A stretch of 52,322 bases of DNA, taken from NCBI RefSeq assembly GCF_002864685.1, contig NZ_NMQZ01000041.1, positions 1 through 52,322 on the forward strand, given 5' to 3'. Made by a program: the position numbers and the translations under genes. Below are positions 2,291 through 45,569 of this stretch, one piece after another (position 1 is the stretch's first letter; each line of letters opens with the position of its first letter). This stretch comes from Alloalcanivorax mobilis (GTDB lineage: Bacteria; Pseudomonadota; Gammaproteobacteria; Pseudomonadales; Alcanivoracaceae). The notes beneath the pieces are model-generated. The model saw nothing but the letters and a program-made list of their open reading frames with translations, ran no database searches and was not told the DNA's origin.

Positions 2291-2474
2291 GACGCCAGAC
2301 GCCGGACGCCGGACGCCGGACGCTAGACGCCGGACGCCGGACGCCGGACGCCAAACCCGGCGCGGATAGCAATGGTGTGTTTACTGAACTGCAGGAAACA
2401 CACCATGCCTCTCAGGTTGAGGGTTTAGCGTCCGGCGTCTAGCGTCTAGCGTCTAGCGTCTAGCGTCTAGCGCC
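2291..2474. repeat. Heptamer element A1: inverted GACGCCG arrays around a conserved core
   Basis: Nine consecutive 7-bp units (GACGCC[G/A] or GACGCTA) run from 2291 to 2353. An inverted array of six TAGCGTC/CGGCGTC units plus a variant runs from 2426 to 2474. The core between them begins AACCC and ends GGGTT, and contains GGTGTGTTT...AAACACACC, a 9-bp perfect inverted repeat with a 13-nt loop. The same core and unit recur after fliA (20859-21014). The whole element can fold as one long hairpin and could end flhDC transcription. Confidence 0.9.
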
Positions 2475-2497
2475 CAGCTTTTTTCCAACAATTCCCC

Positions 2498-2524
2498 TCA
2501 AGCCCCACCGCCGCCGGCCGATAC
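2498..2524 (+). promoter_or_regulatory. Sigma-28 (FliA) promoter for the motAB-cheAW operon
   Basis: TCAA, a 15-bp spacer, then GCCGATAC. This matches the FliA consensus TAAA-N15-GCCGATAA at 3/4 and 7/8 positions, with correct spacing and orientation 42 bp upstream of motA. In enterobacteria the same operon is a class III FliA target. Confidence 0.8.
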
Positions 2525-2565
2525 AGACGGTAATGCTATCCACGTTGTAGTAAAGGATACCGGTT

Positions 2566-3438
2566 GTGCTGATACCCCTTGGTTTCATTATCGTCGCGTT
2601 TTCCGTGTTCGGTGGCTTTTCGATGGCCGGCGGGCATTTGGGGCCGCTGTACCAGCCCACCGAAATTCTGATGATCTGCGGGGCGGCGGTGGGCTCGTTC
2701 ATCGCCGCCAATAACGGCAAGGCCATCAAGGCCACCTTGCGCACCGCCTCCAAGCTCAAGCGCACCAAGCGCTACGACAAAAGCATCTACATGGATCTGA
2801 TGGCGATGCAGTACAAGCTGCTCTCGAAGATGCGTCGCGAAGGGGTGCTGGGGATCGAGCGGGATATTGAAAAGCCCGACGAAAGCCCGTTGTTTTCCGA
2901 ATACCCCCGGTTGCTTCAGGACCCGATGATCATGGGATTCATCACCGATTACCTGCGCTTGATGGTGAGCGGCGGCATGGACCCGATTGAACTCGACGAG
3001 CTGATGACCCATGAGATCGAGGCCTTCGAGCATGAGGCGCACGTGCCGGTGGACGCGCTGACCAAGGTCGGCGACGCGCTGCCGGCGTTTGGCATCGTGG
3101 CGGCGGTGTTGGGCGTGGTGAAGGCGCTCAGCTCGGCGGACTCCGGGGTCGACGAGATGGGCTTTATGGTCGCGCACGCTCTGGTCGGCACCTTCGTTGG
3201 CATCCTGCTCGCCTACGGCTTCGTCAATCCGGTGGCCAGCCGCATTGACCGCCAGGTGCACGAGGCGGTGAAGATGCTGCAATGCATCCGCGTGACCCTA
3301 CTGGCGAGCCTCAACGGTTACGCGCCGCAACTGGCGGTGGAGTTTGGTCGCAAGGCGCTGCACACGGCGGAGCGGCCCTCTTTCACTGAGCTGGAAGATC
3401 ACGTGCGCGCCGCCCGGGGCGGCAACGGCGAGCCATGA
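2566..3438 (+). CDS. motA: Flagellar motor stator protein MotA
   Basis: A 290-residue MotA of the proton-driven enterobacterial type. It opens MLIPLGFIIVAFSVFGG and has GGHLGPLYQPTE and SFIAANNGKAIK. A cytoplasmic loop with the charged residues that contact FliG carries SEYPRLLQDP. The paired final membrane helices include VGDALPAFGIVAAVLGVV and VGTFVGILLAYGF with the conserved prolines. It ends ERPSFTELEDHVRA, as E. coli MotA does. MotA forms the stator ring around MotB in the inner membrane. The start is GTG at 2566, preceded by AAAGGA. The stop overlaps motB (ATGA), indicating coupled translation. Confidence 0.95.
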   Translation: MLIPLGFIIVAFSVFGGFSMAGGHLGPLYQPTEILMICGAAVGSFIAANNGKAIKATLRTASKLKRTKRYDKSIYMDLMAMQYKLLSKMRREGVLGIERDIEKPDESPLFSEYPRLLQDPMIMGFITDYLRLMVSGGMDPIELDELMTHEIEAFEHEAHVPVDALTKVGDALPAFGIVAAVLGVVKALSSADSGVDEMGFMVAHALVGTFVGILLAYGFVNPVASRIDRQVHEAVKMLQCIRVTLLASLNGYAPQLAVEFGRKALHTAERPSFTELEDHVRAARGGNGEP

Positions 3439-4340
3439 AACAGGGTGAACGGGCGATCATTATCCGCCGCCGGCGACCGGCGGCGGCGGGGCACCATGGT
3501 GGTGCCTGGAAGATCGCGCTGGCGGATTTCATGACCGCGCTGATGGCGCTGTTTCTGGTGCTGTGGATTATTTCCACGGCGACGCCCCAGGAGCTCAAAG
3601 GGCTGGCGGAATATTTCCGCACGCCGTTGTCGGTGGCGCTGGCCGGTGGGGATCGCAGTGCCTCGGATTCCAGCGCGATTCCCGGTGGCGGCGCCGATCC
3701 GGCGCACGCCGAAGGGGAGAGGATGCGCGTGGACCTGCGCCAGCAAAGCCGGCCCAGCGACACCCGCAACCTGTTCCGGCATTTGCGCCAGCGCATTGAA
3801 GCGGCGATTGCCGCCGACCCGGCGTTGCGCGATCTGCATGAACAGATGCGCTTCGACATGACCCAGGAAGGGCTGCGCATTCAGTTGGTGGATACCGAGC
3901 GGCGCCCGATGTTCCGGCTGGGCCGCGATCAGGTGGCGCCTTATATGCGCGATCTGCTGCGCACCCTGGCGCCGTTGCTCAATGAGTTGCCCAACCAGAT
4001 CAGTATCAGCGGGCACACCGACAGCCTGCGTTATCAGCGCGGCGATCAGGGTTACAGCAACTGGGAGTTGTCCGCGGACCGCGCCAACGCCTCCCGGCGC
4101 GAGCTGGTGGCGGGCGGGCTGGACGGCGAAAAACTGCTGCGGGTGGCGGGCATGGGCGACCGGGTGCCGATGCAGGACGCCAACCCCGGCGACCCGGTGA
4201 ACCGGCGCATCAGCCTGGTGGTGCTGACCGCCGAGGCGGCGGCGCGGATTCTGGCGCAAAGCCAGGGGCGGGCCTACACGCCGGCGGCGGCACAGCCACA
4301 GGCAGCAGTACAGGCGCAGGCGAAGGCGAAGGCGGAGTGA
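3435..4340 (+). CDS. motB: Flagellar motor stator protein MotB
   Basis: A 301-residue MotB. A short basic N-terminus leads to one membrane helix, KIALADFMTALMALFLVLW, containing the proton-carrying aspartate (Asp31). The plug region EYFRTPL follows. The C-terminal OmpA-like peptidoglycan-binding domain (about residues 170-280) has ISGHTDSLRY, NWELSADRANASRREL and DPVNRRISLVV. The Ala/Gln/Lys tail after residue 280 is low complexity. Start ATG overlaps the motA stop by 4 bp. cheA begins 3 bp after the motB stop, so stator and chemosensory genes share a transcript. Confidence 0.95.
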   Translation: MKQGERAIIIRRRRPAAAGHHGGAWKIALADFMTALMALFLVLWIISTATPQELKGLAEYFRTPLSVALAGGDRSASDSSAIPGGGADPAHAEGERMRVDLRQQSRPSDTRNLFRHLRQRIEAAIAADPALRDLHEQMRFDMTQEGLRIQLVDTERRPMFRLGRDQVAPYMRDLLRTLAPLLNELPNQISISGHTDSLRYQRGDQGYSNWELSADRANASRRELVAGGLDGEKLLRVAGMGDRVPMQDANPGDPVNRRISLVVLTAEAAARILAQSQGRAYTPAAAQPQAAVQAQAKAKAE

Positions 4341-4343
4341 AGC

Positions 4344-6422
4344 ATGGACATCAGTGAATTTTACGACACCTTTTTCGAAGAGGCCGAGGAGTTGCTCGGC
4401 GACATGGAGGCGCACCTTCTGGATCTGAACGTGGACGATCCAGACGTGGAGCAACTCAACGCCATCTTCCGGGCGGCGCACTCGATCAAGGGGGGCGCCG
4501 GCACCTTCGGTTTCGAAGCGTTGCTGCGCACCACCCACTTGCTCGAAAACCTGCTCGATCACGCGCGGCGGGGCCGCATCGCACTGCGCCGCGACATCGT
4601 GGATACCTTTCTGGAAGCCAAAGATATGCTTAACGACCAATTGGACGCCTATCGCCAGGGCACCGAGCCGGACCCGGAAGCACTGGAACGGATCTGCGAG
4701 ACCCTGCGCAAGATGGCGCTTGAAGAGCTTGGCGAGGAGACCGGTGACGACGCCCCGGTGACGGCCGTCCCGGTGGCCACCGCCGAGCCCGAGCCCCCGG
4801 CTCTGCCCGGCGGCGGCGTGAGGGTGGCGCTGTTGGGCGTCGATGAAAAAGACCGCCAGTTGTTGATCGAGGAGCTGGGGCAACTGGGCGAGATCGTTTT
4901 CCAAAGCGGTGACGCCGACCGCTTCGAGGTGACGCTGAACACCTCGGTCAGTGCCACCGACATCGAAGCGGTGATGTGCTTTATCGCCGAGCCGGAGCAA
5001 CTCGATATTCAGGCGGTCGCCGCCAGCGAGCCGGCGGCGGCACCGACCGAGCCGGTGGTGCCCGCGCCGGCGGCGCCCGACGCAGCGCCTGAAAAAGCCG
5101 CGCCGGCGGCCAAACCGAAGGCGGCGGCCAGCGGCGAGTCGTCGTCGATCCGCGTGCCGGTGACCAAGGTGGACCAGATCATCAACCTGGTCGGCGAGCT
5201 GATCATCACCCAGTCGATGCTCAATCAGGTCGCCGAAGGTGGCCAAGGCAAGCACTCAACGGACAGCAGTGGCCAGGACAACGGCAGCGCCGCCCTGGTG
5301 ACCGGGCTCAACCTGCTGCAGCGCAACGCCCGCGATTTGCAGGAAGCGGTGATGTCGATCCGCATGGTGCCGATGGACTATGTGTTCAGCCGTTTCCCGA
5401 GGCTGGTGCGCGATCTTGCCGCCAAACTCGGCAAAGAAGTGGAACTGGTCACCGAGGGCAAATCCACCGAACTGGACAAGAGCCTCACCGAACGGATCAT
5501 CGATCCACTCACCCACCTGGTGCGCAACAGCCTGGATCACGGCATCGAGACGCCGGCGATTCGCCAGGCCGCCGGCAAGAGCGGCACCGGCACCTTGACG
5601 CTGTCCGCCCAGCACCAGGGCGGCAATATTCTGATCGAGGTCAGCGACGACGGCGCTGGCCTGGATCGCGCCAAAATTCTCGCCAAGGCACGCGCCAACG
5701 GGCTGAGCGTGTCCGATTCGATGAGCGACGACGACGTTTGGCAACTGGTGTTCGCGCCGGGTTTTTCCACCGCCGAGCAGGTCAGTGACGTGTCCGGTCG
5801 GGGCGTGGGCATGGACGTGGTGAAACGCAACATCCAGACCATGGGCGGCCATGTGGAAATTCTCTCGCGGCCGGGCGAGGGCACGGTCACCCGCATCGTG
5901 CTGCCGCTGACCCTGGCGATTCTGGACGGCATGTCGATCAAGGTGGGCGCCGAGGTGTTTATCGTGCCGGTGAGCGCGGTGATCGAATCGCTGCAGCCGC
6001 GCCGCGAGGATCTCTATCCCATGGCCGGCGGCGATGTGCTGTTGAAAGTGCGCGAGGACTATTTGCCAGTGGTGGCGGTACACCACGCCCTGGACGTGGA
6101 CGACGCGGTCACCGAGCCGCCCCGCTGCATCGCGGTGATCGTGCAGGGAGAAGGCCGCCGCTACGCCCTGATGGTCGATGAGCTGGTCGGCCAGCAGCAG
6201 GTGGTGGTGAAAAATCTTGAAACCAACTATCGCAAGGTGCCGGGCATTTCCGCGGCCACCATTCTCGGTGACGGCAGCGTCGCACTGATTCTGGACATCG
6301 TCGACATGCACCGGCTCAGCCAGAGCAAAAAAGAGCGCCAGCGTGAGCAACACAACGTGGCAACGCGCCGCCGGCCCGAGGCCCTGATTCCCCCGGCCTT
6401 AATCAAGGAGGTAGAACACTGA
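4344..6422 (+). CDS. cheA: Chemotaxis histidine kinase CheA
   Basis: A 692-residue CheA with the enterobacterial N-terminus [18 protein letters not shown]. The P1 phosphotransfer domain holds the phospho-accepting His46 in [16 protein letters not shown] CheY/CheB-binding P2-like region is followed by an Ala/Pro-rich linker (about 215-265). Then come the P3 dimerisation domain, the P4 ATPase (N-box [31 protein letters not shown]) and the P5 CheW-like receptor-coupling domain. It autophosphorylates in receptor arrays and passes phosphate to CheY and CheB. It is slightly longer than the E. coli protein, mainly through the linker. The stop overlaps cheW (TGATG). Confidence 0.96.
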
Positions 6423-6916
6423 TGAATACGCTCAATGCCGTCAAACACGCCGCCGTGGACGCCGACCGCCAGGAGTTTCTGGTGTTCTCGCTGGGGCAGG
6501 AAGAGTACGCCATCGACATCCTCAAAGTGCAGGAGATTCGTGGCTACGAAAACGTCACCCGCATCGCCAACGCGCCGGACTTCATCAAGGGGGTGGCCAA
6601 TCTGCGCGGGGTGATCGTGCCGATCGTCGATCTGCGCCTCAAGTTCCGTCTTGAACGTGCCGACTACGATGGCCAGACCGTGGTGATCGTGGTCAACATC
6701 GCCGAGCGGGTGGTGGGCATCGTGGTGGACCAGGTCTCCGATGTGATGACGCTGACCGCCGAGGAGATCAAGCCGGCGCCGGAATTCGGTGTCAGCCTGC
6801 CGCTGGATTACATCCACGGCCTGGGCAACCTGGAAGACCGCATGCTGGTGCTGGTGGACATCGAAAAATTGCTGACCAGCGAAGAAATGGCCTTGGTGGA
6901 GGAGGTCGGCGAGTAA
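6422..6916 (+). CDS. cheW: Chemotaxis coupling protein CheW
   Basis: A 164-residue CheW. The fold signatures are [20 protein letters not shown], the [19 protein letters not shown] loop that contacts receptor and kinase, [10 protein letters not shown], and [12 protein letters not shown]. It bridges receptors to CheA in the chemosensory array. The ATG shares a base with the cheA stop, and the receptor gene follows 16 bp later, so the operon is mot-che-receptor. Confidence 0.96.
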
Positions 6917-6932
6917 TCGCCGGCGCGAATCG

Positions 6933-8615
6933 ATGCGCAACAATCAACCGGTAACGCAGCGCGAATACGTACTTGGCGACGACGACTTCCTGATCTCGCG
7001 TACTGATCTGCGCGGTAAGATTACTTACGCCAACCCGGCCTTCATTACCGTTAGCGGCTTCAGCCGCGACGAGCTGATGGGCGCACCGCACAATATGGTG
7101 CGCCACCCGGACATGCCGGTGGAGGCGTTCGCCAACTTCTGGGCAACGATCAAAAGCCGTGGCACCTGGATGGGGCTGATCAAGAACCGGCGCAAAAACG
7201 GTGACCATTACTGGGTGCGTGCCCACGTGACTCCGGTGATCGAAGGCGGAGAGATCAGCGGTTTCGTGTCGGTGCGTCTGAAGGCGGACAAGGCCTCCAT
7301 CGCCCAGGCGGAGAGCCAGTACACGGCGATTCGCGAAGGGCGCGGCAAACATCTGAAGCTGCACCGGGGCGCGGTGCGCCGGCGCGGCCTGGTGCCGGCG
7401 CTGCGCCGCTGGAATCCGGGCTCGGTGGTCAGCCGGCTGGCGACTCTGTGCGCGGTGGCCTGCGCGCTGCTGGTGTTGAGCGCCGGGCTGGGCGGGTATG
7501 GCTTGAGTCAGGCGGACGCCGACAACGGCGCGCTGATAACGGCGCTGGTTATTCTCGCCGCACTCGGCTGCGTGGTGCTGGCGGCGTTGGCCTGGACCAC
7601 CAAGCGGGCCTTTGTGGTGCCGCTCAAGCAGGCCGCCATATTCACCCTGCAAATCGCCGCCGGCAACCTGGCGGCGCAGCCGCCGCGCCGGGTCGGTGGC
7701 GAAATCGGCGAGGTGGTGATGGGGCTGAAGCTGATGCGCCGCAGCCTGGGCAGCATTGTCGGCCACGTGAACGGTGGCATCGCGGTGGTGGCGCCGGCCG
7801 CTCGGGATATTTCCGAGGGCAACGAGGATCTCGCCACCCGCTCGGAACAGCAGGCGGCGTCGCTGCAACAAACCGCCTCCAGCATGGAGCAGATCACCGT
7901 GACCGTGAAACAGAACGCGGACAACGCTCGCCAGGCCAGCGGGTTGGCGTCGGACGCCGCGCGCGCGGTGGGCGAAAGCGGCGAGGTGATGGGCCAGGTG
8001 GTGGACACCATGGGGCGCATCACCGCCAGCTCCGAGCAGATGGCGAAGATCATCGATGCGATTGATTCGATTGCCTTCCAAACCAATATTCTCGCTCTCA
8101 ACGCCTCGGTGGAGGCGGCGCGAGCCGGCGAACAGGGCCGTGGCTTCGCGGTGGTCGCCAGTGAGGTGCGTAACCTGGCCGGTCGCTCCGCCGACGCCGC
8201 CAAGGACATTCGCAACCTGATCGCCAGCTCCACCAAGGAAATCGACGGCGGCGCGCGTCTGGTGCGCCGCGCCGAGCAAACCATTGAATCGGTGGTCGCC
8301 TCGGTGACCCGGGTCAACGACATCATGGGCGAAATCTCCGCCGCCTCCGAAGAGCAGAGCACCGGCATCGACCAGGTCAATCACGCGGTGGCGCAGATGG
8401 ATGAGGTCACCCGGCAGAACGCATCGCTGGTGCAAGCCTCGGCCACCGCCGCCGCCGAACTGCGCTCACGCATTGATCTGCTCGGCCACGCGATTCAGGT
8501 GTTCCGCCTTGGCGCCGAACGCACGCCGACACCGGCGCCAGCGTTACGGGCGCTGGCCGGGCGCGCGGATGACGCCGCCACCGGGGCGCCCGCTCCGGTG
8601 AGACGGGCGGGGTAG
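6933..8615 (+). CDS. aer: Aer-like PAS-domain energy/redox taxis receptor
   Basis: A 560-residue methyl-accepting-type receptor without a periplasmic domain. The N-terminal PAS (about residues 10-125) is very close in pattern to E. coli Aer: [18 protein letters not shown] and [14 protein letters not shown]. It therefore probably binds FAD and senses redox state or oxygen. Two adjacent hydrophobic stretches (about 170-220) form a membrane hairpin, followed by a HAMP-like region and the cytoplasmic signalling domain with its hairpin tip [20 protein letters not shown]. There is no C-terminal xWxxF tether, so it should rely on other receptors for efficient methylation. It occupies the operon position where E. 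coli carries tar. Confidence 0.88.
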
Positions 8616-8620
8616 AGCCG

Positions 8621-9496: not shown

Positions 9497-9517
9497 ACGT
9501 CGGCCCGGCCGAAAAAC

Positions 9518-9560: not shown

Positions 9561-9573
9561 CGTCCGGTTCCAG

Positions 9574-9652
9574 GCTTCAAGCTGCAAGCCTCAAGCTAAG
9601 AAGCGGCTCCGTATCAGGCGTTTCTTGCAGCATGCAGCATGCAGCTTGAAGC
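9574..9652. repeat. Heptamer element B1: inverted GCTTCAA-type arrays
   Basis: The units GCTTCAA, GCTGCAA, GCCTCAA (9574-9594) are followed by a core containing GAAGCGGCTCCGTATCAGG. Inverted units TTGCAGC, ATGCAGC, ATGCAGC, TTGAAGC run from 9625 to 9652. The core recurs in B3 (same strand) and B4 (opposite strand). Sequence outside the right arm, to about 9715, is also related to the flanks of the other copies. Confidence 0.85.
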
Positions 9653-9738
9653 CGTTCTCAACGAAGCCCGGCGCCGCCGCCGGCACGATCTCCCCCTGTT
9701 CCCCGTTGCCGCGCTGTCTTCCCGGCGACATTTTTTCC

Positions 9739-13953: not shown

Positions 13954-13959
13954 AGGGCA

Positions 13960-14040
13960 GCTGCAAGCCGCAAGCCGCAAGCTACAAGCTACAAGCAGCT
14001 ACGTAGCCGCCCTTGAAGCTTGTAGCTTGCGGCTTGCCGC
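13960..14040. repeat. Heptamer element B2: compact inverted GCYRCAA arrays
   Basis: GCTGCAA, GCCGCAA, GCCGCAA, GCTACAA, GCTACAA (13960-13994) are followed by a short core. Inverted units TTGAAGC, TTGTAGC, TTGCGGC, TTGCCGC run from 14013 to 14040. The arms can pair into a long hairpin that begins 6 bp after the cheZ stop and could act as a terminator or mRNA 3'-end protector before flhB. Confidence 0.88.
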
Positions 14041-14149
14041 TGGTCCTTCCCATGAATAACCGCCCCTAATCTTCCCTTATCGTTGGATCGGGGCGGGTCG
14101 GGATTGCGGACAATGGCGCATTCCATGCAGTTTCCCGATGCCGAGCGCC

Positions 14150-19879: not shown

Positions 19880-19965
19880 GCTTCAAGCCGCAAGCGACAA
19901 GCCCCAAGCTAAAGAAGCGGCTCTGTATCAGGGCTCCTTGTAGCTTGAAGCTTGTGGCTTGAAGC
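19880..19965. repeat. Heptamer element B3: inverted GCTTCAA-type arrays
   Basis: GCTTCAA, GCCGCAA, GCGACAA, GCCCCAA (19880-19907) are followed by a core with AAGCGGCTCTGTATCAGGG. Inverted units TTGTAGC, TTGAAGC, TTGTGGC, TTGAAGC run from 19938 to 19965. The flank to about 20015 (reverse complement beginning GGAACAAGGAG and ending at the array) is closely similar to the left flank of B4, so the repeated unit is larger than the arrays. This fills most of the flhE-fliA spacer. Confidence 0.87.
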
Positions 19966-20853: not shown

Positions 20854-20858
20854 GGTCG

Positions 20859-21014
20859 GACGCCAGACGCCAGACGCCGGACGCCGGACGCCGGACGCTA
20901 AACCCGGTGCTGGCAGCAATGGCGTGTTTACTGAACGGCAGGAAACACACCGTCACTTTCCGATTACGGGTTTAGCGTCCGGCGTCCGGCGTCCGGCGTC
21001 CAGCGTCCAGCGCC
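20859..21014. repeat. Heptamer element A2: inverted GACGCCG arrays around the A core
   Basis: Six GACGCC[A/G]/GACGCTA units (20859-20900) lead to AACCCGG and a core with GGCGTGTTT...AAACACACC. Then come GGGTT and inverted units TAGCGTC, CGGCGTC (x3), CAGCGTC, CAGCGCC (20973-21014). The core matches A1 (2291-2474) in the same orientation. The array begins 5 bp after the fliA stop, so the two A elements bracket the block from motA to fliA. Confidence 0.9.
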
Positions 21015-22810: not shown

Positions 22811-22895
22811 GTGGGAGCGGTCCTTGACCGCGAATGAGCGTTGCCAGGCAGTTCTGGCCTTCGGGCTCGGTTCGCGGTCGGGGACCGCTCCCACA
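22811..22895. repeat. REP-like inverted pair, family F (copy 1)
   Basis: GTGGGAGCGGTCCTTGACCG begins at 22811 and its inverted partner CGGTCGGGGACCGCTCCCAC ends near 22894. The pair is separated by ~36 bp. The unit strongly resembles the REP sequences of Pseudomonas (GTGGGAGCGG...CGCGAA). Copies occur at 41386-41471, 41546-41570 and 52291-52315. Confidence 0.85.
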
Positions 22896-22964: not shown

Positions 22965-23043
22965 GCTTCAAGCTGCAAGCTGCAAGGGGCCGCTGATACA
23001 GAGCGGCTTCTTTGCCTGAGGCTTGTGGCTTGCAGCTTGAAGC
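22965..23043. repeat. Heptamer element B4
   Basis: GCTTCAA, GCTGCAA, GCTGCAA (22965-22985) are followed by a core in the opposite orientation to B1 and B3 (CTGATACAGAGCGGCTTC). Inverted units CTGAGGC, TTGTGGC, TTGCAGC, TTGAAGC run from 23016 to 23043. A partial copy with two GCTACAA units and GATACAGCGCGGCC lies at 22721-22755. Both have the same outer flank ending GTGGAGAACGGCT. Confidence 0.85.
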
Positions 23044-23337
23044 CCGTCCCCGCAACCGGTCCGCATCGCCGACGGTGCCGGGCCTGTGTTAGACTTCCGC
23101 GCCTTTCCCGTTCCGATGGAATCGATCCTCATGCATCTGGCGTTCAGTCCGCCCTAGTCAACCTTCCTTATAGCGCCACGCTGTGCGTGCCTGGCTGTGT
23201 GCCCGGGCGCGGAGCAGGGGCGTGTCGTTTTGTGGCCGTCACGGCTACCTCCCTTTAAATATTCGTGTGTTGTCCTGCTGGCCTGGCGGCGTGGTCGCTG
23301 GCGGTGGGTGTGTCGTTGTTGAAACAAGGATTCGATC

Positions 23338-34825: not shown

Positions 34826-34875
34826 AACAATGAAGGTGGGCCGTGCCGGGTTGGGCGTGGTGCTCGTTAATAGGA

Positions 34876-34941
34876 GCTGCAAGCTTCAAGCCGCAAGCCA
34901 CAAAAAGCGAAAGTTGTAGCCTGCGGCTTGAAGCTTGCAGT
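34876..34941. repeat. Heptamer element B5
   Basis: GCTGCAA, GCTTCAA, GCCGCAA, GCCACAA (34876-34903) are followed by a ten-base loop. Inverted TTGTAGC, CTGCGGC, TTGAAGC, TTGCAGT run from 34914 to 34941. The left flank (34828-34875) has GAACAATGAAGG and GGGCCGTGCCGGG, related to the flanks of B3 and B4. It lies between convergent genes (GGDEF-EAL and csbD). Confidence 0.85.
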
Positions 34942-35326: not shown

Positions 35327-35389
35327 CGTTTTCTGTTTTCAATGTTCGGTAACTGAAAACTGAAAACTGAAAACTGAAAACTGAAAACT
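35327..35389. repeat. Heptamer element D: GAAAACT array with short inverted partner
   Basis: Two units CGTTTTC, TGTTTTC (35327-35340) are followed by a short loop. Five perfect GAAAACT units (35355-35389) follow in the inverted sense. It lies ~60 bp upstream of the lipoprotein start, in an AT-rich spacer (35176-35451) that must also hold the promoters of csbD and the lipoprotein gene. Confidence 0.85.
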
Positions 35390-35451
35390 GTTCTGATAAC
35401 CTTGGTTAAAATCGCTCTCGCCGTTCAATCAATGCATTAAAGGACAAAAAA

Positions 35452-35880: not shown

Positions 35881-35915
35881 GCCGCTTGTGGCTGGCCTGA
35901 CCGGCGCGGACTTTC

Positions 35916-35948
35916 TATCATGGCGCTATCATGGCGCTAGCATGGCGG
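35916..35948 (+). repeat. Three tandem 11-bp units
   Basis: TATCATGGCGC, TATCATGGCGC, TAGCATGGCGG: three consecutive near-identical 11-mers in the short spacer after the lipoprotein gene. The unit length differs from the heptamer arrays elsewhere. Confidence 0.8.
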
Positions 35949-36020
35949 GTGCGTGGCTTGGTGGCGCTGCCTGGGTGGTTCCGAACCGACACTATTGCGA
36001 ACAGAAATGAGGGTAGGGGT

Positions 36021-36320
36021 ATGGCGGCGGTGATCGTGGGCGGTGTGATCGTGATCTGGCTGGGGCTGTCCGCCGGGTGCGCCTTGTTGCTGTGGGTTGG
36101 CGTGCGCCTGCATTGGCCGGCGACCCTGGCCGCCCCGTTGTTGTTGGCGCTGATCGAAACGCTGCTGTTCCTGGCCGCCGTACCGAAGGGCGATCTGCTC
36201 CCCGAGCCCCAACGCACCCCCGCATTGCTGACCTTGATCGCCCTGGCCTGGGTCATCAACGGCGCCGTCGCCGCCACCCTCGCCGCCCGCCACCATCGAA
36301 CACTGAACACTGAACACTGA
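36021..36320 (+). CDS. Small integral membrane protein
   Basis: About 99 residues from the ATG at 36021, which has a GGGTAGGGG purine-rich stretch upstream. The frame is open further upstream, but that sequence includes the 11-bp repeats and looks non-coding. Three hydrophobic helices: about residues 3-27, 33-53 and 67-90. No family recognised. The last residues (RTLNTEH, then stop) are encoded by the GAACACT heptamer array, so the original C-terminus may have been altered by the repeat. Confidence 0.6.
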   Translation: MAAVIVGGVIVIWLGLSAGCALLLWVGVRLHWPATLAAPLLLALIETLLFLAAVPKGDLLPEPQRTPALLTLIALAWVINGAVAATLAARHHRTLNTEH

Positions 36321-36332
36321 ACACTGAACACT
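36298..36332 (+). repeat. Heptamer array E: five GAACACT units
   Basis: Five perfect tandem GAACACT units (36298-36332). The array overlaps the 3' end of the small membrane protein gene and supplies its TGA stop (36318-36320). No inverted partner is seen downstream. Confidence 0.9.
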
Positions 36333-38402: not shown

Positions 38403-38490
38403 GCCGCCGGCGCTGTTGGCCGGAAGATTGGCCAGAGAGTTGCAATGGCAAAAGGAAGCAGGGGTAAACCGCGTGAGTAAGGAGTCCGCT

Positions 38491-39375: not shown

Positions 39376-39400
39376 TTTTTTCCATAACGGAGTGTTCGTC

Positions 39401-40429
39401 ATGCGCCTGATCACCACCTTGTTACTCAGTGCCGGGCTGTGCCTGGCCACCTTGAGTGCCCACGCCGCCGACACCGCCCGGGTGTCGCTGTTCTCCTGGC
39501 CGGGTTACGGCTTCTGGTTTATCGCCAAAGAGAAAAACCTGGTGCCGGATCTCGATCTGGAAATCAGCGTGATCGAGGACCCTTACGAAAGCTTTTCCCT
39601 GATGACCTCCGGCGGGCTGGACGTGACATCCAGCACCGCCGAATACGGCCCGATCGCCGCCGACAAGAACGTGCCGGTGAAACTGGTCACCTACACCAAC
39701 CCCTCCTACGGCACCGATAAAATCATCCTGGCGCCGGGGGTGAAAGGCGCCCAGGACCTGAAAGGCAAATCCGTGGCGGTGCTCGAAGGCGGCCTGACGC
39801 AGATCTTCATGGGCATCTGGCTGGAGCAGAACGGCGTCAGCATCAAGGACGTGAAGTTCACCAACCTGATCATGGACGACGCGGTCGGCGCGCTGGTCGG
39901 CGGTGATGTGCAAGCCGCCGAATTCTGGGAACCGTTTGGCTCGCACGCGCTGGAAGCGCTGCCCGGCGCCACCGTGGCCGCCACCTCCGCGCAAGGGGAC
40001 TGGATCGAAACCGCGCTGCTGGGCGATGGCATGTACATGAGCGACGCCTTCCTGAATGACCAGCCGGCGCTTGCCGAGAAAACCATGCAGGCCTATTTCA
40101 AAGCCGTGGATTACTGGAAAGCGCACCCCGCCGAAGGCAACCAGATCATCGCCAAGGCGCTGGGCTTCCCCTTGGCCGATGTGGAAAAAGTGCTCGGCAA
40201 GGACGGCAAGATTTACAAAGGTGGCATCTGGGTGTTCGACGCCCAGCAGGCGGGCCGCTTCATGGGCGTGGTGCCCGGCGAACTGCCATTGGGCCAAAGC
40301 AACGGTCAGATGGCGAAGCACTGGCAAACCACCACCGACTGGTGGCTCAAGTTTGGCCTGATCGAGCAGCGTCACCCGATCGAAGACGGCGTTAACCTGG
40401 CGCCCTTGAAAGCGGTGCTGGCGCAATAA
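39401..40429 (+). CDS. ABC transporter substrate-binding protein (NMT1/TauA-like)
   Basis: A 342-residue periplasmic protein: signal peptide of 23 residues ending SAHA-AD. The mature NMT1/SsuA/NrtA-type fold has FSWPGYGFWFIAKEKNLVPD, LMTSGGLDVTSSTAEYGP, DKIILAPGVKGAQDLKGKSV and LVGGDVQAAEFWEPFG. The ligand pocket is aromatic-rich (Trp, Tyr, Phe near the N-terminus), suggesting a small hydrophobic or cationic ligand rather than a plain oxyanion; that is inference. It follows the permease by 25 bp and lies before the ATPase gene. Confidence 0.9.
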   Translation: MRLITTLLLSAGLCLATLSAHAADTARVSLFSWPGYGFWFIAKEKNLVPDLDLEISVIEDPYESFSLMTSGGLDVTSSTAEYGPIAADKNVPVKLVTYTNPSYGTDKIILAPGVKGAQDLKGKSVAVLEGGLTQIFMGIWLEQNGVSIKDVKFTNLIMDDAVGALVGGDVQAAEFWEPFGSHALEALPGATVAATSAQGDWIETALLGDGMYMSDAFLNDQPALAEKTMQAYFKAVDYWKAHPAEGNQIIAKALGFPLADVEKVLGKDGKIYKGGIWVFDAQQAGRFMGVVPGELPLGQSNGQMAKHWQTTTDWWLKFGLIEQRHPIEDGVNLAPLKAVLAQ

Positions 40430-40487
40430 ACGGCGCCGGCCATGGCGGTGTGCGCCGTGCTGGCCGGCCGGATTCGAGGAGACGGCG

Positions 40488-41282
40488 ATGAAAACCAACA
40501 GCGGACTGAACGTGCACAAGGCGGGCAAGATTTTCCGCGCCGGCAGCCGCCAGCCACGGGTGGCCCTGGAGGGCGTGTCGCTGCACTTGCCGCCGGGCCA
40601 GGTGGGCGTGCTGCTGGGCCCTTCCGGCTGTGGCAAATCCACCCTGCTGCGCATGGTCGCCGGGCTGGAGGCGCCCACCAGCGGCGCCCTGTCGCTCAAC
40701 GGTCGCGCCATTACCGGCCCCGGCCGGGACCGGGGCATGGTGTTCCAAAGCTACACCTCGTTCCCGTGGCTGACGGTGCGCCAGAACGTGGCCTACGGGC
40801 TCACCATCAACGGTGACGCCAGCAGCCTGAAAGAGGGCGTGGTGGACCACTTTATCCGCGCCGTGCGTCTGCAAGACGTGGCCAACGCCTACCCCCACGA
40901 GCTCTCCGGCGGCATGCGCCAGCGGGTGGCGATCGCGCGCACCCTGGCCAACCACCCTGAGTTGTTGCTGATGGACGAGCCGTTCGGCGCGCTCGACCCG
41001 GAAACCCGCTGGCAAATGCAGGAACTGCTGCTGGGTATCGTGCGCAAGGAGCACACCACCGTGTTGCTGGTTTCCCACGACATCGAGGAAGCCCTTTATC
41101 TGGGCGACGTGGTGTTTTTTCTGTCCAGCCACCCGGGCCGTCTGCGCGAGGTGATCCGCCCGGGTTTCAAGCACGAGGTGCCCGCCGGCGACCGCGAAGC
41201 GCTGCTCGATCACCCCGAGTACCGGCGCCTGGATCTGCACATCCGGCGCTTGATGAGCGAAGAGGGGCGGCGCGCGGCTTAG
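40488..41282 (+). CDS. ABC transporter ATP-binding protein (SsuB/TauB type)
   Basis: A 264-residue ATPase. Walker A GPSGCGKST, Q-loop VFQSYTSFPWLTV, signature LSGGMRQRVAIART, Walker B LLLMDEPFGALD and switch His in LLVSHDIEEALYLGD are all intact. It energises import with the permease and binding protein just upstream. The substitution SYTSFPW in the Q-loop region is typical of the nitrate/taurine/sulfonate group. This gene ends the operon; REP elements follow. Confidence 0.93.
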   Translation: MKTNSGLNVHKAGKIFRAGSRQPRVALEGVSLHLPPGQVGVLLGPSGCGKSTLLRMVAGLEAPTSGALSLNGRAITGPGRDRGMVFQSYTSFPWLTVRQNVAYGLTINGDASSLKEGVVDHFIRAVRLQDVANAYPHELSGGMRQRVAIARTLANHPELLLMDEPFGALDPETRWQMQELLLGIVRKEHTTVLLVSHDIEEALYLGDVVFFLSSHPGRLREVIRPGFKHEVPAGDREALLDHPEYRRLDLHIRRLMSEEGRRAA

Positions 41283-41385
41283 GGCTTAGGGCGCGCTTGC
41301 ATGCGGCACGCAACACGCCGCCCCACCCCAGAATTCAACCCGCGCGGGCCTGTTGTTCCCTGTTGTGGCCGCGCTACAGAGCCGC

Positions 41386-41471
41386 TGTGGGAGCGGTCCC
41401 CGACCGCGAACCGAGCCGAAGGCGAGGATGGGCCTGGCAAAGCCGATTCGCGGTCGAGGACCGCTCCCACA
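41386..41471. repeat. REP-like inverted pair, family F (copy 2)
   Basis: TGTGGGAGCGGTCCCCGACC (from 41386) and the inverted CGGTCGAGGACCGCTCCCAC (ending about 41470), separated by ~35 bp. Same arrangement as copy 1 at 22811-22895. Confidence 0.87.
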
Positions 41472-41545
41472 TCAGAAGCGAACCCCGGTGCCAGCCCGGC
41501 TGTTCCCTTCAACCTGCTCCTTGTTTCGGCCCGCTACGGAGCCGC

Positions 41546-41570
41546 TGTGGGAGCGGTCCCCGACCGCGAA
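41546..41570. repeat. REP-like sequence, family F (copy 3, single)
   Basis: TGTGGGAGCGGTCCCCGACC followed by GCGAA. A single unit without its inverted partner, ending 25 bp before the stop of the minus-strand gene. Confidence 0.85.
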
Positions 41571-41595
41571 CCGAGCCGAAGGCGAGGATGGGCCG

Positions 41596-43059
41596 CTAAA
41601 ACGTGGACCAGCCGGTGAATTCCATCAGCCGGTAGAGCCCGTAGCGCAGGGTGGAGTCGTCGGCGTAGGCGGTGTAGGCGAGGCTGAACTGTTTGCCGTC
41701 CGGGTTGCTCCAGCGCTGTTCGAAGGTCTCGCGGGCGGCGCGCAGGGCGGGCAGATCGGGGCGGCCGGTGAGGGCCACGCTGGTCTCCAGATTGAGGTTG
41801 TCCAGGTTGCGGCGGGTGTAGTTGGCGGAGCCGAGAATCAGCGTCGCCGGGCGTGCCCGGTCGCCGGGGGCTGGCAAGCGCAGCAACATCTTAGTGTGGC
41901 ACTGTTCGCCGTGGGTGGCGCACCAGCGCACCGGCACGCCGGCGTCGTGCAACTCCAGCGCCGCCTGGCGATTGGGGATGCCGTTCTTCTCGCGGCCGAA
42001 GGCGTCCTTGTTGGGGTCGAGCAGCACGCGCAGGGCGACGCCGCGCCGCTGCGCCTTGACCAATGCTTTGATCAAGGGCCGGTGGGAAAGATAAAACACG
42101 CTCACCTGAAGGGTTTCCCCGGCGCGGGCTTCGCGCACCGTGCGCAGTAGAGCGTCGCGGATGGCGCCTTCGGTGAGCACCTGCAGGGTCGGCCCGACGG
42201 TCGGCGCGGCCGCTGTGGTCAAGGCCGGCGCGGGCACCGGATCGGCGCCGGAAAAGCGCGCCACCGACAGCTCCGAGCGCAGCACGTCCAGCGCCGCCGC
42301 GCCACTGAAGCGCAGCGCCACATTGCCGTGGGCGCTGCTGGCGTCGTGGGCATTGGCGGAGGTGACCAGGGCGGTCCAGTGGTCGCCCTCGTCCACTACC
42401 AGGGTTTTGCGGTGATTGGCCTTGAAGTTGATCAGCGCCAGATAACTGCGCAGGGTCACCTTGCCGGGGCCGGTGGCGTTGGGCAGCCAGCCGCCCTCGG
42501 TGCTGTTGCCCAGCCACTGGCAGCACAGCCGCCACAGGCCCGACCAGCCCGGGTTGGAATCGCGCAGGCGGGGCAGGTCGGTGAACACCACCTGCACGCC
42601 GGCCTCGCGCAGGCGCTGCAGGTGGGGCGCCTCAAGGCCGCCGTAAAAGGTGTTGAACGAATCGGTGATCAGCGTCACCGGCATTGCCGGATGGGCGCGT
42701 TTGGCATGGATCAGCGCCTCGGTGAGTTGCGCGCTGAGCGGCCGGTGCACGCGGGTGCTGGCGCCGGCCATGTCGTTGAACAGGAACATGTCCACCAGCA
42801 CCCGCTGGCGGGCCTGGCCGATCAGACGGAAGAATTCATCGAAGATGCCCTGCTGGAAATGCCGCTCGGGTGTTGCCTGGGTGGCGTCGGCCTGGTTCAC
42901 CCAGGTGTCGTCCACCAGCAGCGCGACACGCTCCGCGGCGCGCACTGGCCAGGCCCGGCCGACGTCGTCGGGCAGCGGCTTATAGCGGTGGTACAGCGCG
43001 GTCAGCGCCCAGGCGCACAACAGCAGCAGGATCAGAAGGCGAACAGGATGGCGGTTCAT
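41596..43059 (-). CDS. Phospholipase D / cardiolipin synthase-like membrane-anchored protein
   Basis: About 487 residues from the ATG at 43059 (a GTG at 43086 is in frame but has no ribosome-binding site). An N-terminal membrane anchor or uncleaved signal (VRLLILLLLCAWALTALY) precedes two PLD half-domains. The first HKD motif is NHRKTLVVDEGDHW, with SANAHDAS downstream. The second is CHTKMLLRL with LILGSANYTRRNLDNLN. The HxKxxxxD residues of the first are complete; the second keeps H-x-K. Likely acts on phospholipids at the periplasmic face, either as a hydrolase or a transphosphatidylase. Monocistronic and convergent with the ABC operon. Confidence 0.85.
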   Translation of the reverse strand: MNRHPVRLLILLLLCAWALTALYHRYKPLPDDVGRAWPVRAAERVALLVDDTWVNQADATQATPERHFQQGIFDEFFRLIGQARQRVLVDMFLFNDMAGASTRVHRPLSAQLTEALIHAKRAHPAMPVTLITDSFNTFYGGLEAPHLQRLREAGVQVVFTDLPRLRDSNPGWSGLWRLCCQWLGNSTEGGWLPNATGPGKVTLRSYLALINFKANHRKTLVVDEGDHWTALVTSANAHDASSAHGNVALRFSGAAALDVLRSELSVARFSGADPVPAPALTTAAAPTVGPTLQVLTEGAIRDALLRTVREARAGETLQVSVFYLSHRPLIKALVKAQRRGVALRVLLDPNKDAFGREKNGIPNRQAALELHDAGVPVRWCATHGEQCHTKMLLRLPAPGDRARPATLILGSANYTRRNLDNLNLETSVALTGRPDLPALRAARETFEQRWSNPDGKQFSLAYTAYADDSTLRYGLYRLMEFTGWSTF

Positions 43060-43138
43060 GGCATCACGGTGTCGGGAAAACGTCACTCTAGCATTTCCCA
43101 GCGCGCCGTGGAGACCAGGAAAAAACAGCAGGGCGGCG

Positions 43139-43331
43139 GTTGAAAGTGAAAAGTTAAAAGTTAAAAGTTAAAAGTTAAAAGTTAAAAGGTCGTAGCCGAA
43201 ACGCCTTCCCACGGCCTACGGCCGTTGAAGATCAACGTGGGTTTGAACTCCCTGAAGCGCGGGCACGGCCTTGCCGCCTGGTGGACCCCGCCCGCGTTTC
43301 AACTTTTAACTTTTAACTTTCAACTTTTAAC
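43139..43331. repeat. Heptamer element C1: inverted GTTAAAA arrays
   Basis: Seven units (GTTGAAA, GTGAAAA, five GTTAAAA; 43139-43187) and five inverted units (TTTCAAC/TTTTAAC; 43297-43331) flank a ~109-bp core. The core starts GGTCGTAGCC, contains CGGCCTACGGCCGTTGAAGA and ends ACCCCGCCCGC. The core recurs at about 90% identity in C2. It fills the spacer between the PLD-like gene start and the ketoacyl synthase stop. Confidence 0.9.
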
Positions 43332-43353
43332 CGCCATCCCCCCGCTTCTTTCC

Positions 43354-45159
43354 CTACCCCCGATAATCATCAAACCCTGGATCATCCCGAAACACCAACG
43401 GCTGGTCCCAGCCAGGCAGGCGGATGTCGCGGTCGGTGAGGGCCACGTCTTCGCCGTCGATCACGCCTTCGTTGAAGTGGTATTCCGGGCGGGTTTCGCC
43501 GCGCAGGGCGCGCTGGTCGTAATCGCGGGCGGCCTCGCGGGTGCTTTCCACGGCGTGCTGCCAGCGGGTCAGAGTGGCGTCGCCGTGGCGGCGGCGCAGC
43601 AGCTCCAGGGTGGACTCCGGCGACAGCGTCACGGCGGTGGCGTTGTTGCCGCCAAAGCCCTTGGAGTTGAGCAGGCCGGCGGCGGGGCGCAATTCGCGGT
43701 GGTGTTGCGACAGCGATAAATGGCTGGCGTGCAGATCGTCGGCGAAGGCGTCGACGGTGGCGATGCCGGGCAGCAGGCCCTCGGCGAAGGTGCCCAGGGT
43801 GGCGGCGAGCTGGTCGCCGCCGGCGGAGCCCAGCGAATGGCCGACAAACGCCTTGATCGCCGCCACCGGCCACTGCTCAATGGCGAACGCTTTGGCGACC
43901 TGATTGAGCACGTGGGATTCGGTGACCCGGTTCTGCGGCGTGCCGGTGCCGTGGGCGTGCACGAAGCTGCGCTGACGCAGGGCGTCTTCGCCGAGCAGTT
44001 GGCGAACCAGATTGGCGCCGCGTCCGAGGGTCAGGTAATTGCCAATGCCTGGCGAGGAAATCGATTTCTTGGCGCCGTCGGCGTGCACGAAGACGTCCGG
44101 CACCGCGCCGAGGATGTCCGCGCCCAGCTCCAGGGCCAGGGCGTCGTCCATCAGCACGCAGAACTGGGCGGATTCGGCCATGGTGAAGCCGCAGTTCTCG
44201 CCAAACGGCCGGCAGGCGCGGCGCAGATCCGGTTGGCTGACGCCGTCCAGCGCCGCCAATGCTTCGTCTTCGGCGAGCGCGCCCATGGCGCGATAGCCTT
44301 CCAGCACCTCGGCCACCAGCGGTGCTTCGCTGGTGCCGACCACCACCAGCCGGGCACGCCCGGCGCGGATCGCGTGCACCGCGCGTTCCAGGTTATACAG
44401 GAACGTCGCGCAGGCGCCGAGCATGCCGCCGGTGCCGCCGGGGCTGCGCAGCACATAGGCGTTGATGAAATCGGCGGTCATCTCGCCAAGCCCCAAGGGG
44501 CACTGTTTGGAGGTGGTGCGCGCGCCCAGGGCCGGCGCGCGCATCATGCCGCCCAGGCCGTTGTCGTCCAGTTGCGCCATGGCGTTGGAGGCGAACACCG
44601 CCACCTGGTCCGGCGCCAGCCGGCCGCGCAGGCTGTCCCAGGGAATACCAAGCATGCCGAACGCATCGCTGACGCCGTAGATCGCCATTTGCAGCGCGCG
44701 CGGGTGGTTGCGGGACGGATACAGGGCGGCCGGGTCGAAGCCGTCGGGAAGCTGGCCGGCGGCGCTGACGCGCCGCTCAATGGCGCTCGGCGCGCGCAGA
44801 TCGGCGCCGGCGGGCAAGGTCACGCGGCTGCGCTGGCGGCTGATCGGCTCCACCCGCCAACCGGCGGGCAGCGGCTCGGGCAGGTCCATGTTGCGCATTT
44901 CCACCGTCACCGGCGCGTCGCTGTGGCCATTCACCGCCATGGTCAGCCGCACCGATTCGGGCAGCGCGCGGATCAAGGTGCCATCCAGCAGGCGCTGCTC
45001 GTCGCCATGACCACTCAACGCGCCCAGGGCATCAAGCGTGCTGCGCCGCCGGCCCTGATCGAGCGCGTCGAACACCAGGCGATGGAACCCGTGATGCATG
45101 GAAGAGCGGCCGGCGGCGTTGATGCCGCCCATGGCGGTAATGACGGGCAGGGCGGACAT
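43354..45159 (-). CDS. fabY: FabY-type beta-ketoacyl-ACP synthase
   Basis: A 601-residue thiolase-fold condensing enzyme, about 180 residues longer than FabB/FabF. The N-terminus LPVITAMGGINAAGRSSMHH resembles the long KAS group that includes Pseudomonas aeruginosa FabY, which starts fatty acid synthesis by condensing acetyl-CoA with malonyl-ACP. Catalytic Cys lies in MLGACATFLYNLERAVHAIR, the first His in HAHGTGTPQNRVTE, the second in GHSLGSAGG; NSKGFGGNNATAV is the C-terminal glycine loop. GGGGAG precedes the ATG. The acetoacetyl-type thiolase gene lies upstream on the same strand, separated by repeats B6 and C2. Confidence 0.75.
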   Translation of the reverse strand: MSALPVITAMGGINAAGRSSMHHGFHRLVFDALDQGRRRSTLDALGALSGHGDEQRLLDGTLIRALPESVRLTMAVNGHSDAPVTVEMRNMDLPEPLPAGWRVEPISRQRSRVTLPAGADLRAPSAIERRVSAAGQLPDGFDPAALYPSRNHPRALQMAIYGVSDAFGMLGIPWDSLRGRLAPDQVAVFASNAMAQLDDNGLGGMMRAPALGARTTSKQCPLGLGEMTADFINAYVLRSPGGTGGMLGACATFLYNLERAVHAIRAGRARLVVVGTSEAPLVAEVLEGYRAMGALAEDEALAALDGVSQPDLRRACRPFGENCGFTMAESAQFCVLMDDALALELGADILGAVPDVFVHADGAKKSISSPGIGNYLTLGRGANLVRQLLGEDALRQRSFVHAHGTGTPQNRVTESHVLNQVAKAFAIEQWPVAAIKAFVGHSLGSAGGDQLAATLGTFAEGLLPGIATVDAFADDLHASHLSLSQHHRELRPAAGLLNSKGFGGNNATAVTLSPESTLELLRRRHGDATLTRWQHAVESTREAARDYDQRALRGETRPEYHFNEGVIDGEDVALTDRDIRLPGWDQPLVFRDDPGFDDYRG

Positions 45160-45271
45160 AAAACTCCCCAGAGGATGACTGAACGGTCAATTCTAGGCCC
45201 GCGACGCCGCTTTGCGTATCGGTCAGCGAGGTTGATGTGCAACGGGATATTACGGCCGGTGGGGCCGGTCG

Positions 45272-45569
45272 GTTTCAAGCTACAGGCTTCAAGCTTTAAG
45301 CTACAGGCAGGCCGTGCTGGCGGAAAGGCCGTGCTGGTCGATGGCCCGTTGAAAGTTAAAGGTTAAAAGTTAAAAGGTCGTCGCCGACGGGCTTTCCCGC
45401 GGCCTACGGCCGTTGAAGATCAACGCGGGTTTGAACTCCCTGAAGCGCGGGCACGGCCTTACCGCCTGGTGGACCCCGCCCGCGTTTTAACTTTTAACCT
45501 TTAACTTTCAACGGGCGTCCTGCCCCCCCAGCACGGCCTGCCTGTAGCTTGCCGCTTGCCGCTTGCCGC
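45272..45569. repeat. Heptamer element B6, split by element C2
   Basis: Left array GTTTCAA, GCTACAG, GCTTCAA, GCTTTAA, GCTACAG (45272-45306); right array CTGTAGC then three TTGCCGC (45542-45569). A 21-bp perfect inverted repeat, 45300-45320 against 45528-45548, links the inner ends of the two arms. The region between carries a complete C2 element. Confidence 0.85.
45344..45516. repeat. Heptamer element C2 with perfect mirrored arms
   Basis: Four units GTTGAAA, GTTAAAG, GTTAAAA, GTTAAAA (45348-45375) and four inverted units (45485-45512) are exact mirror images unit for unit. With GCCC/GGGC outside they form a 32-bp perfect terminal inverted repeat (45344-45375 and 45485-45516). The core matches C1. 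Confidence 0.92.

Follow-up and report, generated by a model that had tools for sequence, protein, structure and literature searches.

Here we describe the 7-bp tandem arrays in a 52,322-nucleotide stretch of the Alloalcanivorax mobilis genome (RefSeq assembly GCF_002864685.1, contig NZ_NMQZ01000041.1, positions 1 to 52,322; hereafter the window), and we relate the paired arrays among them to the intervening sequences (IVS) of 23S rRNA and to the intervening-sequence protein (IVP). An earlier note on this DNA had placed arrays of exactly 7 bp at a series of positions, and Tandem Repeats Finder (TRF) recovers one at or near each of them, with starts at 2291, 9626, 13959, 19884, 20857, 22965, 34875, 35351, 36298, 43139, 45274 and 45348; the left arm at 9574 is seen by reading the sequence, and the array that had been put at 35327 begins at 35351. 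TRF also reports inverse partners that had not been itemised, at 2426, 19937, 20975, 43297, 45485 and 45547, and reading the sequence adds more at about 14012, 23020 and 34914. Copies from across the genome define the families A (GACGC+NN), B (CAAGC+NN), C (AAGTT+NA) and D/E (CTGAA+NN), with CACGC+NN and a GGAT/ATCC type as minor families. Of the five unrelated units that the earlier note had listed, several are indeed families with different letters, but GAAAACT and GAACACT are one family, CTGAA+NN. In A, B and C the layout is an array, a core and an inverse array, the two arms facing inward. The A, B and C elements of the window sit between open reading frames (ORFs) and outside 23S rRNA, and the sole match of the window in Rfam at the gathering threshold is a tRNA. 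The features are as follows, with strand where one is assigned and the source in brackets.

2291..2352, + strand: left arm of A element 1, GACGC+NN, about 9 units, beginning directly after the stop codon of ORF 1709-2290 (TRF, sequence, ORF list)
2353..2425: core of A element 1, with inner hairpin GGTGTGTTT...AAACACACC and the motifs AAACCC and GGGTTTA at its bounds (sequence against copies in the same genome)
2426..2478, - strand: right arm of A element 1, an inverse array of about 7 units (TRF)
9574..9653: B hairpin 1, left arm of CAAGC+NN units 9574-9598, right arm of inverse units about 9624-9653 (sequence; TRF at 9626-9645)
13959..14041: B hairpin 2, left arm 13959-13996, right arm about 14012-14041 (TRF, sequence)
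19884..19965: B hairpin 3, arms 19884-19909 and 19937-19965 (TRF, sequence)
20857..20898, + strand: left arm of A element 2 (TRF)
20975..21012, - strand: right arm of A element 2 (TRF)
22965..23044: B hairpin 4, arms 22965-22986 and about 23020-23044 (TRF, sequence)
34875..34940: B hairpin 5, arms 34875-34903 and about 34914-34940 (TRF, sequence)
35351..35390, + strand: D array, GAAAACT x5.7, essentially unpaired, with at most 2 opposite units at about 35331-35343; outside the element class (TRF, sequence)
36298..36332, + strand: E array, GAACACT x5, unpaired, overlapping the 3' end of ORF 35931-36320; outside the element class (TRF, ORF list, sequence)
43139..43188, + strand: left arm of C element 1, GTTAAAA/GTTGAAA, that is AAGTT+NA (TRF, sequence)
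43297..43331, - strand: right arm of C element 1 (TRF)
45274..45570: composite, B arms 45274-45302 and 45547-45570 with a C element nested centrally, C arms 45348-45376 and 45485-45512 (TRF, sequence)

The composite corrects the earlier picture of two separate arrays at 45272 and 45344. It folds at a z of -9.9, and A element 2, taken entire, folds at a z of -14.7 against shuffled sequences.

The excess of period 7 is a property of the genome and not only of the window. Our genome sample joins the window to 20 stretches of 20 kb from the same 4.10-Mb genome, picked without reference to repeats, for 452,322 bases in total. When runs of at least 18 consecutive matches were counted at each lag from 4 to 15, lag 7 gave 32, lag 14 gave nine and lag 9 gave one, with none at the remaining nine lags and none at any lag in Markov-resampled sequence. 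TRF at a score of at least 50 found 30 arrays of period 7, 13 of period 14 and 10 of period 21 in the same sample. The over-representation of period 7 against other periods, which the earlier note had proposed as a check, is therefore borne out. In the genome BLAST returns at least 91 matches to A and at least 117 to C when either strand and partial pieces are included, from the scoring of 40 out of 156 first-look candidates for A and 40 out of 140 for C; among the collected loci there are 38 distinct A and 25 distinct C elements, and cores recur at distant sites with identity up to 94%.

Within a unit the letters are not equally free. Unit statistics were drawn from 200 of 249 distinct arrays, those whose consensus is one of six five-base motifs (arrays with another consensus, such as GACGT or AAGTG variants, were excluded, and many of the 249 had been gathered by likeness to A, B or C). 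Positions 1-5 are constant at 97.8-99.4% in A (360 units) and at 97.3-99.5% in B (220 units), against 67 and 63% for positions 6 and 7 in A and 81 and 67% in B; in C (207 units) the main variation is at position 6 (70.5%), with less at position 2 (87%). In a test that needs no register, the two most variable columns are adjacent in 78.5 of 122 usable arrays, where one third is expected (p 1e-12). Arm-to-arm base pairing was tried as the constraint behind this pattern and rejected, mirrored variable bases matching no better than shuffled partners in A and C, although B did exceed them. The near fixity of five of the seven positions in A and B stands despite the arms of A and C not being conserved as base pairs. 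Adjacent units share variants more often than expected (observed 0.59 vs 0.30 in A, 0.72 vs 0.37 in B, 0.69 vs 0.60 in C), and such likeness of neighbours is the mark of slippage or unequal exchange. Unit number is nearly uncorrelated between the two arms (0.12 in A, 0.14 in C). The unit at the outer end departs from the others in a regular manner, often to GGCGC in A and to GTTGA in C, so that the elements seem to have ends. The earlier note had offered slippage with a 7-nt step or a protein that reads 7-bp spacing as the common mechanism. A protein fits better than slippage alone, because in this genome two adjacent positions out of seven carry the variation; slippage has still to be invoked for the number of units, because neighbouring units share variants above expectation.

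In the unbiased genome sample, a forward array was scored as paired if an inverse array lay no more than 300 bp away, to its right or to its left. The inverse array lay on the right in 14 of 14 cases for A, 5 of 8 for B and 12 of 12 for C, and on the left of the forward A, B and C arrays in 0 of 34. Among the matches listed for two sister genomes, C arrays show the same right-hand pairing in 30 of 40 and 11 of 20 cases and the reversed order in 0 of 60. The suggestion of inverted pairs around a core accordingly holds for A, B and C but not for D/E, where CTGAA+NN arrays (GAAAACT and GAACACT included) have a partner on the right in 0 of 6 cases and on the left in 1 of 6, a polarity opposite to that of the other three. 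A D/E pair of this opposite polarity occurs at L078:10481-10584, where a GTTTTCA array is followed by ACTGAAC units. At L075:15022-15106 an A-like array passes straight into a CTGAAAA array, resembling a fusion of two heptad families, and L065:9600-9800 and L065:1300-1430 have a near-identical left flank (CCGTGCC...AAAAAAGAAAGAA...GCCGTTGCGCTC) followed at the same position by different heptads, AATCCTG and AAGCTTG.

The arrays occupy a narrow niche. Of 86 arrays that belong to the named families or to near variants of them, 73 lie between genes by a heuristic gene call under which 19% of the sequence is non-coding; this bears out the claim that nearly all are intergenic, but with exceptions such as the 36298 array in its overlap with a reading frame. 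For 53 of these 73 the nearest gene boundary is a stop codon, at most 9 bp away in 36 of the 53. The longest direct repeats flanking 38 A, 12 B and 25 C elements are no longer than with shuffled partners, so no target-site duplication is seen.

Orthologous spacers, compared in 12 relatives of the genus (cited here by G number), differ in what they hold. The spacer of the composite at 45274-45570 is short in the sister species G004, G005 and G008, holds B/C composites of differing make in G003, G006, G009 and G010 and other hairpins in G001, G002 and G012, has neither in G011, and lies outside coverage in G007. In G006 the B frame encloses a different C, in G010 an element of the ATCC/GGAT type. 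B arrays are also seen within C cores in G003. A second spacer, between co-directional genes (L067, near 3200), is occupied by hairpins of B in this genome and G003, of CACGC+NN in G005 and G009 and of GACGC+NN in G012; it has a different palindrome in G004 and G006, and little content in G007, G008, G010, G001, G002 and G011. A third holds C in this genome and G009, an ATCCTGT type in G004 and CACGC+NN in G012. One A element is common to G000, G001, G002, G005, G011 and G012, and in it the five fixed bases have decayed too. Of 8 cases of arrays in relatives, 7 fell in the 10 spacers that are occupied in this genome (p 1.6e-4 if 34 spacers are assumed, 1.3e-3 if 26), as did 5 of 6 non-homologous fillings (p 0.005 to 0.02). 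The cases were counted by eye with coding-looking rows omitted, and the result, that relatives' arrays mostly occupy spacers filled here, is only suggestive because the number of spacers rests on the heuristic gene call.

The wider distribution is patchy. The four-unit B pattern occurs in 11 of 398 Pseudomonadota genomes, with about 100 or more matches in three of them (G000 160, G003 101, G202 99), one of which is from another family. The AAGTT pattern is mostly unpaired across named genomes, with an inverse partner within 400 bp for 11 of 124 array rows among the matches listed. Plasmid records gave one short partial match to A and none to C.

The lead to a gene came from eight places with widely spaced forward and inverse C arrays, inspected among those listed for G003 and G004. 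At one of them (G003 C15), AAGTT+NN arms enclose a single ORF of 114 codons, coding for 114 amino acids, and little else. Its product belongs to the 23S rRNA intervening-sequence proteins by its match to PF05635 (E 5.8e-32) and to TIGR02436, four helix bundle protein (E 2.3e-31); a relative has a solved structure, 2gsc, with five chains. The widely spaced C pairs at L661 and L662 proved to be separate ordinary elements. A tblastn search of 5.46 Mb of collected sequence found one further IVP, about 1 kb from an AAGTT array, with GTATT+NN units on one flank and AATAC+NN on the other.

IVP genes collected by protein similarity, without regard to their flanks, are mostly bordered by period-7 arms. 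On plasmids, tblastn gave 21 records (a second IVP query gave 41), from which 16 loci were analysed and five omitted as apparent repeats of the same strains or species. Each flank was scored over about 200 bp for the best of lags 4-12, at least 19 of 24 matches counting as a pass. Lag 7 was best in 29 of 32 flanks, and both flanks passed in 11 of 16 loci against 3 of 136 control genes taken from four of the plasmids (Fisher p 8e-11), two of the three passing controls adjoining an IVP gene itself. The arms fit an inverted arrangement better than a direct one in 14 of 16, the exceptions being L672 and L677. With the two array-found IVP loci added, lag 7 is best in 33 of 36 flanks, both flanks pass in 13 of 18 and the arms are inverted in 16 of 18. 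Among the plasmid sites are spacers between cas6 and cas4, between cas10 and cmr3, between two ribonucleotide reductase genes, and between an iron-sulfur assembly gene and sufB. An Azospirillum plasmid copy lies inside an apparent 23S rRNA (judged by eye, the record being unannotated there), with arms of 18 of 24 on both sides, just below the threshold. The viral-contig set began as 39 loci, of which 33 were analysed after removal of 6 near-duplicates (L697 and L706 still resemble repeats of L696). Here lag 7 was best in 55 of 66 flanks, and at least 19 of 24 was reached at lag 7 in 31 of 66, at lag 8 in two and at other lags in none; control windows passed in 4 of 119 at lag 7 and in 1 at lag 8 (Fisher p 8e-13). 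Both flanks passed in 11 of 33 loci, inverted in 9, and either flank in 20 of 33. The phage collection gave no IVP match at E 1e-3.

The letters of the arms follow the protein over short distances. We compared heptads with proteins over 39 IVP loci (14 plasmid, 25 viral-contig), 35 of which have an array of at least 18 of 24. The 21 pairs of IVPs more than 70% identical, which derive from few clusters, have 5.76 of 7 heptad letters in common at the best rotation; pairs below 70% have 3.3 to 3.75, random heptads giving 3.34. Protein identity and heptad likeness are correlated (Mantel r 0.31, reached by 0 of 5000 permutations). Around the IVP genes from three named phyla and from metagenomic contigs, lag 7 persists with differing letters. 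Heptads are thus alike in close IVPs and unlike in distant ones, which argues that in the short term gene and heptad act as one unit and that in the long term the letters change and the step stays. Together with the period-7 enrichment and the shared inward polarity of A, B and C, these differing heptads support the earlier note's view that a common cause, rather than one inherited repeat, lies behind the arrays.

We consider it probable that the paired A, B and C arrays form the two arms of short stem-loop elements that are mobile but lack a gene, and that these elements belong to one class with the 23S rRNA IVS and IVP elements. What would define the class is a core between two inverted arrays with a 7-bp unit; coding copies have a single IVP gene as this core, and the copies of the window have a small hairpin or another element in its place. 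For C the link to IVP is direct, with the same heptad, in the same genus, around an IVP core; for A and B it is drawn by analogy of architecture (arms, polarity and niche). In the mechanism that we envisage, copying or movement of the element would require that an oligomeric protein, either IVP or a complex that holds it, first engage a series of regularly spaced sites in both arms, and slippage would alter the number of units. The simplest account of a 7-bp step that is kept while its letters drift would be that such an oligomer must engage evenly spaced sites. Copies would land either in spacers, often a few bases from a stop codon, or at the midpoint of another palindrome, and landings of the latter kind would yield the nested B-around-C structures. 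Gene-less copies would be mobilised in trans by IVP, by a route that presumably leaves no target duplication. Heptad operators of the omega type, bound by ribbon-helix-helix proteins, are another system with which the arrays may be compared; a literature search on it found nothing.

Several observations weigh against this reading. No IVP gene was found by tblastn in the window or in the sampled part of the genome (about a ninth), and IVP-cored copies with a heptad of this genus number one (C, in G003) and none for A or B. The D/E arrays fall outside the explanation, and the lack of a target duplication at the A, B and C elements also counts against it. Arrays are lacking at L724-L727, the four loci with the most distant relatives of IVP, the IVP genes of L677 and L709 are flanked on both sides by period 8 instead of 7, and the arms are not inverted in L672 nor, of the 11 viral-contig loci with both arms, in L708 and L723. 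The pattern of two adjacent free positions is only weakly present around the IVPs of viral contigs (18.5 of 37, p 0.04) and is missing around those of plasmids (3.7 of 19), and the plasmid flanks rule out a universal rule of five fixed and two free positions. In the controls from cyanobacterial plasmids, a lag-7 array lies on either flank of 22 of 136 genes, so such arrays are also frequent there away from IVP, and control flanks pass 25 times at lag 7 vs 5 at lag 8. Arrays of arbitrary letters are likewise common in the large collection of viral contigs, where two control heptamer patterns gave 99 and 44 stretches; arrays can therefore arise without any system of IVP and arms. For the same reason we rejected carriage on viral contigs (46 stretches for A, at least 120 for B) as a sign of the same system.

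The alternative that we take most seriously, though we think it unlikely, holds that other machinery moves the heptad palindromes, and that IVP genes ride along as passengers after insertion at their centres. Elements do occupy palindrome centres, as C does in the B frame here and the ATCC/GGAT type in the B frame of G010; that heptad letters track IVP relatedness above 70% identity is what would be expected if arms and gene travel together, and speaks against passengers.

The arrays might instead be non-mobile sites for a host regulator or a chromosome-structuring protein that recognises 7-bp repeats, which seems to us quite improbable. Five of the seven unit positions are fixed, as binding sites might be, and two reports go in this direction, suggesting such a role for the class-3 sites of Geobacter (PMC2700814) and reporting that SARP regulators of Streptomyces bind heptameric direct repeats (PMC5930380). 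Set against this are the patchy spread of the B pattern over so few Pseudomonadota genomes, three of them with about 100 or more matches, the insertion polymorphism, the presence of different families at one spacer, and the decay of the fixed bases in the old shared A element, which argues against a host function there.

A further possibility is that the arrays are relatives of the REPIN or BIME elements, with heptads as an unusual form of repetitive extragenic palindromic (REP) sequence, moved by a REP-associated Y1 transposase (RAYT). These elements share the niche, being short, palindromic, intergenic and of high copy number, and hairpins such as GTAGGAGCGGCTTTAGCCGCGAT...ATCGCGGCTAAAGCCGCTCCTAC fill the same orthologous spacers in some species. 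Y1 transposases leave no target duplication, and none was found for the A, B and C elements. Y1_Tnp genes are present in 13 of 13 genomes of the genus. The heptads, however, show no link to them: among the 21 Y1_Tnp loci examined, drawn from 48 matches in the genus, a nearby run of period 7 is seen at a single one and is an unpaired GAACACT array, and the Y1_Tnp gene of L082 is flanked by GTGGGAGCGG REPs instead of heptads. Nor do Y1_Tnp counts (2-5 per genome) track the arrays, G003 having 2 with 101 B matches and G002 having 5 with none. This explanation is weakened, and we rate it as improbable. A three-unit GAACACT array lies about 120 bp upstream of a Y1_Tnp gene at L083:1295-1317, and REP-like hairpins GTGGGAGCGGTCC...GGACCGCTCCCAC occur at window 22811-22894 and around one of three Y1_Tnp genes (L082).

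It is very improbable, in our judgement, that a purely mutational process, in which slippage builds 7-bp tandem repeats in palindromes and spacers with no dedicated protein, accounts for the whole. Adjacent units do share variants in A, B and C, heptameric repeats are frequent in control spacers of cyanobacterial plasmids, and one report has them over-represented in many bacteria (PMC4692102); this process leaves unexplained the fixed inward polarity, the defined outer unit, the cores shared by distant sites and the association with IVP. A miniature inverted-repeat transposable element of a DDE transposon was rejected for want of a target-site duplication in A, B and C elements.

To our knowledge the element class that we favour as the source of the A, B and C arrays has been known so far mainly as the IVS of 23S rRNA, which sit at helix 25 or 45 and are excised from the RNA by RNase III. 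IVS and window elements are alike as stem-loops with inverted terminal repeats, in keeping with the folds of the two window elements, and the inverted period-7 arms common to the 16 plasmid and 33 viral-contig IVP loci and to the window are the class feature that we propose here. The window elements are unlike IVS in lying between protein genes, without an ORF, and in having dozens of relatives in the genome. The earlier note knew of no described system of this design, a statement that the literature does not support. In one report, the IVS carry inverted repeats at their ends and GACAGAT heptamers beside the S23 gene, two or three by strain, their function and origin are described as unclear, and mobility is said to have been suggested earlier (PMC4990558). 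An optional single IVP ORF in the loop, with heptameric repeats of strain-variable number beside it, is accordingly an IVS feature in that text, and the Azospirillum copy conforms to it. In Geobacter metallireducens, five tandem heptanucleotide repeats are reported in 15 of 16 'class 3 global regulator sites' (MTYCTGA), mostly paired as here; one pair lies between proB and proA, where a relative has another repeat. They differ in being called regulator sites, with no core gene or mobility proposed in the portion of the report at hand (PMC2700814). Heptameric simple sequence repeats, such as TAACTGA in Beggiatoaceae (PMC4679880) and GGGAATC in Xanthomonas or the Calothrix heptanucleotides (PMC4692102), resemble the window arrays in period, largely intergenic position and species-specific letters, but in the available text they are direct arrays and not inverted pairs around a core; their over-representation in bacteria is reported there without explanation (PMC4692102). 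Titles and the beginnings of abstracts, with few subscription journals among them, held no statement that IVP genes generally lie between inverted heptamer arrays.

A wider form of the proposal is one that we put forward tentatively, as a conjecture that may well fail. There might be a widespread class of mobile stem-loop elements without a transposase; IVP would be their sole gene, and their arms would hold to a 7-bp step with letters that are free. IVP oligomers would recognise spacing and hairpin form instead of a set sequence, gene-less copies would be moved in trans, and many unexplained heptameric repeats, perhaps the classical cyanobacterial ones among them, would be arms or their remains. 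IVP, a small family with a four-helix bundle, would gain a candidate substrate, and the scattered heptamer repeats a candidate agent. The data connect the over-representation of heptamers with the intervening sequences of 23S rRNA, and make both testable. If true, period and polarity would specify the partner site in this mode of mobility, and the letters would be free to drift.

Other repeats were met along the way. On IMG/VR contigs, mostly of low GC (L400-L479, mean 0.38), CAAGC+NN arrays carry all 16 dinucleotides at NN, and a forward array has an inverse partner in 1 of 249 arrays, both strands counted; L400 and L401 hold an ORF that we take to be GP88-like. An unrelated 70-kb IMG/VR contig (L372, L380, L387) has GACGCCA arrays paired around short hairpins, in four pairs. 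In the window, an 11-bp tandem array of 3 copies (CTATCATGGCG, 35915-35947) overlaps the listed start of ORF 35931-36320, and 41354-41593 belongs to a separate multi-copy family of about 240 bp with many copies in the genome, some of them in short tandem rows (contigs C70, C76, C44 and C27).

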